Assembly (NCBI GenBank): GCA_019119555.1
Contig: DWWU01000003.1
Span: 24,532-88,531 of the forward strand
Reading direction: 5' to 3'
Length of the DNA: 64,000 nt
From: Candidatus Fusicatenibacter intestinigallinarum
GTDB lineage: Bacteria > Bacillota > Clostridia > Lachnospirales > Lachnospiraceae
The notes beneath the pieces were generated by a model. That model saw nothing but the letters and a program-made list of their open reading frames with translations, did no database searches and was not told the DNA's origin. Position numbers and translations under genes: made by a program. How positions within the stretch are numbered: the first letter of the stretch is position 1; every line of letters starts with the position of its first letter. This document shows, piece by piece, positions 3,743 to 60,974 of the stretch.

Positions 3743-3762
3743 ACAGGAAAACGGCGCATGCC

Positions 3763-3790
3763 GTAACCGCTCAGATGGCGGAACCGTTAT
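3763..3790. repeat. Family A palindrome
   Basis: Variant with arms GTAACCGCTCAGA and GGCGGAACCGTTAT around TG, 8 nt beyond the stop codon of the minus-strand GH3 gene. Confidence 0.75.
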
Positions 3791-7978: not shown

Positions 7979-8000
7979 GACTTCATAACAAAGGAGTTCT

Positions 8001-8070
8001 GTTGACTGACGGAATCGACGTGGAAAACCACCGGGGAGGCAGAATCTCAGAAAGGGCCGACCGTCTGGGC
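8001..8070 (+). promoter_or_regulatory. ZTP/ZMP riboswitch (pfl motif)
   Basis: The leader contains GACTGACGG, then TGGAAAACCACCGGGGAG, then GGGCCGACCGTCTGGGC. These match the two conserved subdomains of the pfl/ZTP riboswitch, which senses the purine intermediate ZMP and its triphosphate under folate shortage. It lies upstream of fhs, a classic target, and its 3' end runs into a terminator, so ligand binding should turn transcription on. Confidence 0.88.
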
Positions 8071-8108
8071 AACAAGTGTAACAGCTTTTACATTTGTTGC
8101 TTTTTTTT
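8069..8108 (+). terminator. Riboswitch expression-platform terminator
   Basis: GCAACAAGTGTAA pairs with TTACATTTGTTGC around CAGCTT, followed by eight T. The left arm overlaps the aptamer end (CTGGGC), as expected for a ligand-controlled transcription switch. Confidence 0.88.
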
Positions 8109-20868: not shown

Positions 20869-20896
20869 GTAACAGTTCAGCCAGCTGAACTGTTAC
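20869..20896. repeat. Family A palindrome, perfect copy
   Basis: GTAACAGTTCAGC, CA, GCTGAACTGTTAC, placed between the HAD terminator and the next promoter. A GGTAACC precedes it directly. Confidence 0.93.
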
Positions 20897-20926
20897 CGGC
20901 AATGTTTTGCGGGAGCAGGTTGGATA

Positions 20927-39451: not shown

Positions 39452-39479
39452 GGAACCGTTCAGCTGGCTGAACGGTTAC
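39452..39479. repeat. Family A palindrome between the ATPase and binding-protein genes
   Basis: GGAACCGTTCAGC, TG, GCTGAACGGTTAC. It separates the four transporter genes from the binding protein inside one operon. It could act as an RNA-stability hairpin giving different amounts of binding protein and membrane parts. Confidence 0.82.
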
Positions 39480-42276: not shown

Positions 42277-42304
42277 GTAACCGTTCAGCCAGCTGAACGG
42301 TTAC
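42277..42304. repeat. Family A palindrome, perfect copy (C/G version)
   Basis: GTAACCGTTCAGC, CA, GCTGAACGGTTAC, 5 nt after the aminotransferase stop. Both arms have changed together compared with the copies at 2446 and 20869. Confidence 0.95.
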
Positions 42305-42338
42305 AGTATCTTCCCCGCCTCACCCGCCAGAGAAGCCC

Positions 42339-42576
42339 AGGAAACCACGGGACGGCGGGTGGCAGGGCAGGAGAATTTCAGAGATTCCGTGCTTGCGACT
42401 GCGGGCGAACAGAACAGGGCGAATTGTCCGGGGGACAGGTGGAAGAAATGCTCCGCGCAGAAAGACCTGCATGCACCTGTACAACGGACCATTCGCCCTG
42501 TTCTGTCCGAACGCCGGAGTGAGCACGGAATCTGAAATTCCTCCGCCTTGCCGCCCGCCGTCCCGCGGTTTCCGTC
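42339..42576. repeat. Very long inverted duplication (two 103-nt arms, 32-nt loop)
   Basis: The left arm (42339-42441) and right arm (42474-42576) are about 80-85 percent complementary, with uninterrupted stretches such as CGGGACGGCGGG, TTCCGTGCT and ACAGAACAGGGCGAAT. Some differences would be G-U pairs in RNA. The arms meet at ACAGGTG...CACCTGT. Short ORFs listed over it are mirror translations of each arm, without ribosome sites. No transposase and no T run. Confidence 0.88.
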
Positions 42577-42609
42577 CGCCCTCCTAATAAAATCTTAAGT
42601 TTTTCCTTC

Positions 42610-42638
42610 TTGACAAAATGCGGAAACGCGATTATGAT
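42610..42638 (+). promoter_or_regulatory. Sigma-A promoter of valS
   Basis: TTGACA (perfect), 17 nt, TATGAT, ahead of the T-box leader. Confidence 0.85.
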
Positions 42639-42644
42639 AAGAGC

Positions 42645-42992
42645 AACCTGAACAGAAAAAAGGTAATGAGAAAGAGGAGTACATGAAGAACCCCGAAAGA
42701 GAGGATGGTTCACCGGCTGAAAGGCCGTCCAGGGAAGTGGTCATGGAAGGTAGCTTTTGAACCGGGGGATTGAAAGGCAGCGATAGCAAGTGGTTGTGCA
42801 AAGTAGGTTCCCACGCCTTGTCAGCGTTAAAAGACCGGAAGGTTCGCGCCGCAGAACGTTCAGTGAAGACCGAAAGAACGATGCCCGGAACAGAAAACGG
42901 ACGGCGCCGACAGATTCCATGAAGAGAAAAAACAAGGTGGTACCGCGGATGAAATTCGCCCTTTGCACAACAGCTGTGCAAAGGGTTTTTTT
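42645..42992 (+). promoter_or_regulatory. T-box leader for valS
   Basis: A leader of about 350 nt ending in the T-box sequence AAGGTGGTACCGCG (42934-42947), then a terminator whose arms CCCTTTGCACA and TGTGCAAAGGG (42959-42985) are followed by seven T. Uncharged tRNA-Val should stabilise the antiterminator. I did not assign the Val specifier codon with confidence. The GAGGATGG block at about 42702 fits the conserved Stem I end. Confidence 0.92.
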
Positions 42993-56999: not shown

Positions 57000-57062
57000 G
57001 TTGCAGTTTAGCCAGGTCTGCGCAATTGCTGCGCAGACCGTGTGAAAACGCAGAGCCTGTGG
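57000..57062. repeat. Family C composite element, copy 1
   Basis: Begins with a family A left half (GTTGCAGTTTAGCC), then hairpin AGGTCTGCGCA, ATTGC, TGCGCAGACCGT, then TGAAAACGCAGAGCCTGTGG. It lies between spoVAB and spoVAC. Confidence 0.82.
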
Positions 57063-57086
57063 GTATCCGGCCCGTCGTTCCATCAG

Positions 57087-59869: not shown

Positions 59870-59939
59870 GTTGCAATTCAGCCAGGTCTGTGCATTCACT
59901 GCACGGACCGTATGAAAACGCAGAGCCAGTTACTGTTAC
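59870..59939. repeat. Family C composite element, copy 2, within a split palindrome
   Basis: Family A left half GTTGCAATTCAGCC, then AGGTCTGTGCA, TTCAC, TGCACGGACCGT, then TGAAAACGCAGAGCC, then a family A right-half-like AGTTACTGTTAC. Relative to copy 1, C-to-T on one arm is matched by G-to-A on the other. Confidence 0.8.
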
Positions 59940-60850: not shown

Positions 60851-60878
60851 GTAACAGTTCAGCCAACTGAACTGTTAC
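60851..60878. repeat. Family A palindrome
   Basis: GTAACAGTTCAGC, CA, ACTGAACTGTTAC. It is directly preceded by a half copy, GTAACAGTTCGCC plus the family C opening AGGTCTG (60830-60850), as if one repeat was inserted into another. Confidence 0.85.
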
Positions 60879-60920
60879 GCCATTCGGCCATTGAAAATTG
60901 CTTCGCGATGGGCCGGATGC

Positions 60921-60974
60921 CCGCAGGCTCTGCGTTTTTATACGGTCTGCGCATTTCCTGCACAGAGCCTGTGG
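60921..60974 (-). repeat. Family C element, copy 3 (inverted)
   Basis: Read on the minus strand it carries GCGCAGACCGTATAAAAACG and CAGAGCCTGCGG like copies 1 and 2. On the plus strand its ends are CCGCAGGCTCTG and CAGAGCCTGTGG, forming a hairpin. Between tcdA and murB. Confidence 0.75.

Follow-up and report, generated by a model that had tools for sequence, protein, structure and literature searches.

A lineage-restricted family of fold-back intergenic DNA represented by a long hairpin upstream of valS in a Fusicatenibacter genome

Several described systems resemble the element reported here in part. ERIC, Correia, RUP and other MITE-like repeats (reviewed in PMC10969869) are, like it, dispersed, intergenic and non-coding, form strong hairpins, occur in tens of copies and lie near gene ends or starts. 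However, they are AT-rich families of homologous sequence, usually with terminal inverted repeats and target duplications, whereas the element is GC-rich, no duplication was found, and its copies have a free stem, what they share being limited to a core in mid-stem and to short, asymmetric ends. REP and REPIN sequences with their Y1 (RAYT) transposase are also palindromic intergenic repeats at transcription-unit edges, but the element is several times longer, and Y1_Tnp was not found in assemblies with 11 and about 42 copies. On paper, integron attC sites are alike in conserving structure with a free stem sequence and in marking one strand by asymmetric unpaired bases; unlike them, the element has no attC boxes in its consensus, no cassette arrays were seen, and copies lie after genes but also in front of promoters. 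At prs the element stands where related species carry an intrinsic terminator, but it has no U tract and is also found upstream of promoters; identity with an intrinsic terminator was rejected since no U tract follows the hairpin. Finally, the maintenance of stems by template switching, with multibase compensatory change and perfect stems produced by arm copying, has been described for short stems of RNA genes (PMC8794818). The same mutational mechanism appears to act here, but on DNA hairpins of 50-150 bp without sign of RNA-level selection. We file the element among the prokaryotic intergenic palindromic repeats, as a new form.

The hairpin upstream of valS

The window is a stretch of 64,000 nucleotides from Candidatus Fusicatenibacter intestinigallinarum, and positions below refer to it unless a genome is named. 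An earlier note on this DNA had described, at 42339-42576, an inverted duplication with 103-nt arms that are about 80-85% complementary. A repeat search found the inverted arms as two blocks, 42340-42382 with 42531-42573 (43 nt, 86% complementary) and 42382-42441 with 42474-42533 (60 nt, 80% complementary), the second enclosing the 32-nt loop that had been claimed. Bulged bases in the left arm shift the blocks by about 3 nt relative to each other, and gapless pairing over 42339-42576 joins only 57 of 103 positions. The duplication lies where the note had placed it. Folded as RNA, 42310-42600 reached -174.7 kcal/mol, with shuffles averaging -102.9 (z = -12.4; 0/200 shuffles), and the minus strand gave z = -11.8, which confirms that the hairpin is real. 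Direct reading of the flanks bore out the stated absence of a visible U tract on both sides and of an adjoining transposase gene. The valS T-box noted downstream is also real (RF00230, 88.4 bits, E 4e-18).

On the plus strand, the valS copy begins with an unpaired leader, C-rich and G-poor and ending in CCCA, which the family end profile places at 42305-42339. The left outer arm (42340-42391) is G-rich, with bulged bases near the core. It is followed by the left core CTTGCGACTGC (42392-42402; CTTGCGACTRC in the family) and by the left inner block, in which GGGCGAACA, 13 hypervariable nucleotides and TGTCCG succeed each other (42403-42430). The terminal loop region (A+C rich on the plus strand in the family) extends over 42431-42481. 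The right inner block (42482-42512) consists of CGGAC, a 13-nt complement of the left hypervariable stretch, and TGTCCGAAC; it leads to the right core GCCGGAGTGAG (42513-42523; GYCGGAGTGAG in the family) and to the C-rich right outer arm (42524-42573), the complement of 42340-42391. The outer arms rest on the repeat search and on an arm alignment (52 nt left, 50 nt right, 44/52 paired). The right end, GTCCGCCCT (42574-42582), which corresponds to GTCC(C/G)CC in the end profile, points toward the valS transcription unit. Outside the element, on the same strand, lie the valS promoter TTGACA..TATGAT (42610-42638) and the T-box leader (approximately 42657-42966). The TTGACA and the -10 are kept in the genome of the window (G000) and in five other genomes of its genus (G002, G003, G001, G004 and G006). 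The T-box score is just under the gathering score of 93, and routine annotation would miss it.

Extent, anatomy and position of the family

A BLAST search of G000 with the element returned further copies. The earlier note's idea of an arm sequence existing elsewhere in the genome is right in so far as the element is a dispersed, non-coding, fold-back intergenic repeat. The note's contrary case, of an element present once with arms drifting randomly, fails: the element is multicopy, and the arms do not drift independently. Against relatives, BLAST found copies confined to some species of the same genus, of which G001-G006 are the genomes other than G000. In a scan of 84,980 species, the exact core pattern matched 43 stretches, all in three assemblies (G003, G005 and G002). 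Core-pattern matches and copies from G000 and other genomes made up 59 distinct copies, collected by core sequence and not by structure, and a covariance model was built from 20 of them. With this model, 11 strong copies were detected in G000, about 14 in G002, 42 in G003 and 13 in G005, and zero in G001, G004 and G006. Over 298 other genera of the same bacterial family, only G211, an AT-rich genome of a different genus, matched; its 2-3 divergent copies preserve TTGCGACT..GCGAACA..TGTCCG..GGAGTGA. Plasmid and phage sequences gave no match and IMG/VR no real match; two IMG/VR matches from a looser core pattern do not fold into this hairpin and were discarded as chance. A literature search outside subscription papers and preprints found no such family described in these bacteria. 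The element is a previously undescribed, lineage-restricted, dispersed and non-coding family of fold-back intergenic DNA, carried by a small number of related gut bacteria. The record of G002 is titled Lacrimispora saccharolytica An817 yet is classed in the genus of the window, and its name looks wrong.

Across the family, the element measures about 230-450 bp. Its order on the plus strand is leader, outer stem, bulged A's of the left arm, left core, CGRACA-13 nt-TGTCCG, loop, mirror block, right core, outer arm and GTCC(C/G)CC. According to the end profile, which rests on copies picked for a GTC right end, the leader is about 35 nt long (53% C and 10% G at positions -35 to -1 before the stem; 37 copies) and its final CA is nearly invariant. 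The outer stem ranges from about 42 to 150 bp; its sequence is free, and its arms are nonetheless about 95% complementary. The bulged A's are conserved in the left arm. The mid-stem core is asymmetric (left, CTTGCGACTRC; right, GYCGGAGTGAG) and invariant, partly because the exact search pattern imposed this on the 59-copy set; CCTGCGACTAC/GTCGGAGTGGG and other model matches that the pattern misses differ from it only slightly. The inner stem is 13 bp long and hypervariable, and the loop is 41% A, 36% C, 15% G and 8% T in copies whose cores exceed 110 nt. On the plus strand, the conserved core can be drawn as a helix with U.G, G.U, G.A, A.G and U.C positions, and we infer that the folded plus strand, DNA or RNA, would be the recognised form. 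In the valS copy of G003 (L109, L128), the right arm with its core is tandemly duplicated beside the valS promoter. Another copy (L276, G002:C121:7900-8700) has its inner part deleted and its right end expanded to several tandem GTCCGCCCTCTTCC.

The right end of the element faces a transcription unit: it either abuts a stop codon or has a -35 box shortly downstream. When the right-hand gene converges, its stop codon lies -1 to 11 nt from the stem end in 13/18 copies, and when it diverges, TTGA[CT] is present 7-48 nt beyond the stem in 16/32 copies, individual distances possibly being wrong since genes were called with a simple ORF caller. Close pairs among the model matches are all divergent with right ends outward (10/10). 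Orientation along the leading strand (31/43 copies; 26/33 without those belonging to five close pairs) was rejected as a rule of its own, since it is confounded with gene direction. No functional theme was seen among the neighbours dapA, plsX, asnS, rplS, uvrA, hrcA, prs, ruvA, prfC and valS, whose names were assigned from reading the sequences.

For nine of the ten copies examined in G000, an ortholog was found in a sister species, and the orthologous sites keep intact cores. At prs, the element is present in G000 and G003; ordinary terminators stand just after the stop codon in G001, G004 and G006, and in G002 the site holds a terminator with a stem similar to the inner stem of the element. 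At plsX, the upstream gene of G000 is found without the element in G001 and G004. At valS, G000 and G003 carry the element and G002, G001, G004 and G006 do not. This comparison indicates that sites were gained within the clade, mostly kept and sometimes decayed. The left-side DNA of the plsX and valS copies differs between species. Decayed half-elements are present in G002, indicating that copies are not strictly needed.

Concerted change of the arms and readings of the element

Two-sided changes were observed in 31/48 consensus pairs, and 95.6% of cells were paired vs 77.6% in shuffles (0/500); every covariation measure was beyond 500 shuffles and beyond slid controls. At orthologous sites, whose right flanks align at 77-92%, most of the sequence of the outer stems and of the 13-bp inner stem has been replaced, and the arms still complement each other. 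Among the changed pairs of ortholog inner stems, 90/113 (80%) went from Watson-Crick to Watson-Crick on both sides, 47 by transition type and 43 by transversion type, the remainder being 14 single changes and 9 that left a mismatch. Beyond 18 bp, 2,602 of 2,823 outer-stem pairs are Watson-Crick, and the mismatches show no strand preference (67 G.T/T.G vs 66 A.C/C.A); those of the inner stem count 5 G.U vs 14 A.C. One copy (G003:C182:716-882) displays the process directly: its left arm bears the complement of the right core in place of CTTGCGACTRC, with the bulged A just outside retained. If the RNA were under selection, a preference for G.U over A.C and for transitions would be expected; the published share of two-step compensations that pass through G-U in rRNA stems is 78.5% (PMC8794818). 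For a hairpin as stable as this one (-175 kcal/mol), one mismatched pair would probably be nearly invisible to selection. Together, the double changes, the transversions, the equality of G.T and A.C and the overwritten core point to template switching from arm to arm at the DNA level and not to RNA selection. We conclude that the likeness of the arms is upheld by this switching and that the asymmetries of the core persist through selection. The earlier suggestion of a replication or recombination product is thereby sustained in another sense, as template switching that maintains the arms, and the suggestion of a long double-stranded RNA as the selected product is disfavoured by the lack of a G.U preference.

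The same covariation, with a plus-strand core that can be drawn as a continuous helix, an A/C-rich leader and loop that are apparently unstructured on the plus strand, and the large fold energy, could suggest a structured RNA, either a small RNA or a 3' or 5' UTR element, transcribed from the plus strand, with a core that binds a protein and pairing kept by RNA selection. We consider this improbable. It fits poorly with the absence of a G.U excess and with about half of the double changes being of transversion type, against the 78.5% through G-U of rRNA. Copies occur both between divergent genes and after stop codons, so that they share no transcript. The hairpin has no counterpart among bacterial Rfam families; with Rfam 15 on six loci and E up to 0.1, only plant-type miRNA models far below their gathering score appeared beyond a lysine riboswitch and the T-box.

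A MITE, that is, a non-autonomous transposon with no host function whose orientation and distance would mark harmless insertion spots, is unlikely but deserves more weight. The element is indeed a short, dispersed, non-coding intergenic repeat without an ORF (11 copies in G000, about 42 in G003), its copy number varies fourfold between species, decayed copies exist and its occurrence in the distant genus of G211 is patchy. This much of the palindromic MITE proposed in the earlier note stands. Other MITE features were not found: direct repeats in the flanks are not above shuffled pairing for k = 2-9, although old duplications may have faded; the ends are asymmetric (..CCA and GTCC) in place of shared terminal inverted repeats; and the arms differ between copies, even orthologs. 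As to a related autonomous element, a search with the right half-motif returned, among the matches looked at, intact copies, one arm-converted copy and truncated or contig-end ones. The sharing of nine of ten sites with sister species, cores intact, also argues against a MITE. Y1_Tnp (PF01797) is absent in G000 (75.7% complete), in G003 (99%), the copy-richest assembly, and in G211, and a Y1 (RAYT) transposase was rejected as driver on this ground. The same absence weighs against a folded single-strand site for recombination or integration, like attC or IS200/IS605 ends, of which one strand would be cut by a recombinase. Conserved extra bases on one arm and a free stem do resemble attC, and the differing left-side DNA at plsX and valS could be read in this way, but non-coding left flanks could differ through free evolution alone. 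RYYYAAC/GTTRRRY boxes are found neither in the invariant columns of the 20-copy alignment nor in the end profile. No cargo was found between half elements, the solitary right cores looked at being truncated copies. Such a site seems very improbable.

The family is most likely a fold-back intergenic repeat that would be read by a putative trans factor, and possibly a transcription border. We give a probability of roughly 0.55 to the full reading, namely a lineage-restricted fold-back family with template-switched arms, a selected core read by a putative factor, and a role as polar boundary at transcription-unit borders. During replication, a folded arm would serve as template for the other, and this would keep the stem complementary without selection on its sequence. 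Selection would maintain the core, including its conserved bulges and non-Watson-Crick pairs, because a putative trans-acting factor recognises the folded strand or a cruciform. As the weakest step, suggested by position only, the element might act at transcription-unit borders as a polar boundary that holds back read-through or antisense transcription, and it might also replace an ordinary terminator. That it represents a new class of polar border, in which a long cruciform or DNA hairpin has free, self-correcting arms and a fixed non-canonical core read by a putative dedicated protein, and turns the same face to transcription units so as to insulate them, is a speculative and rather doubtful extension. 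The family offers a clear natural case in which covariation of the RNA style carries the mark of DNA replication rather than of selection on RNA, with consequences for every structured-RNA claim that rests on covariation alone. Its dozens of copies are also marked sites at which template switching in long palindromes can be measured, and the constant polarity with which they border transcription units raises the testable question of what retains them there.

Other intergenic repeats and riboswitches

A second, far commoner intergenic repeat of about 133 bp (GTAACAGTTCAGCC..GGCTGAACTGTAAC) has a branched fold of -72 kcal/mol and 33 matches in about 196 kb of G000. In the window, it was located at 42277-42310, 60851-60971, 57000-57077, 59870-59927, 20869-20901, 39454-39479, 2446-2473 and 3755-3789, and one of its fragments forms the palindrome preceding the valS hairpin. 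In G003 and G002, a third intergenic repeat was seen, GAGCATGTTTGAAAATTCATTTC..CCCCAAAATCAG (L215:16414-16491; also L217, L210, L214, L205 and L201). Similarity between the left flanks of non-orthologous copies of the hairpin element was traced to other intergenic repeat families. Elsewhere in the window, a ZMP/ZTP riboswitch is present at 7992-8077 (RF01750, 57.3 bits).
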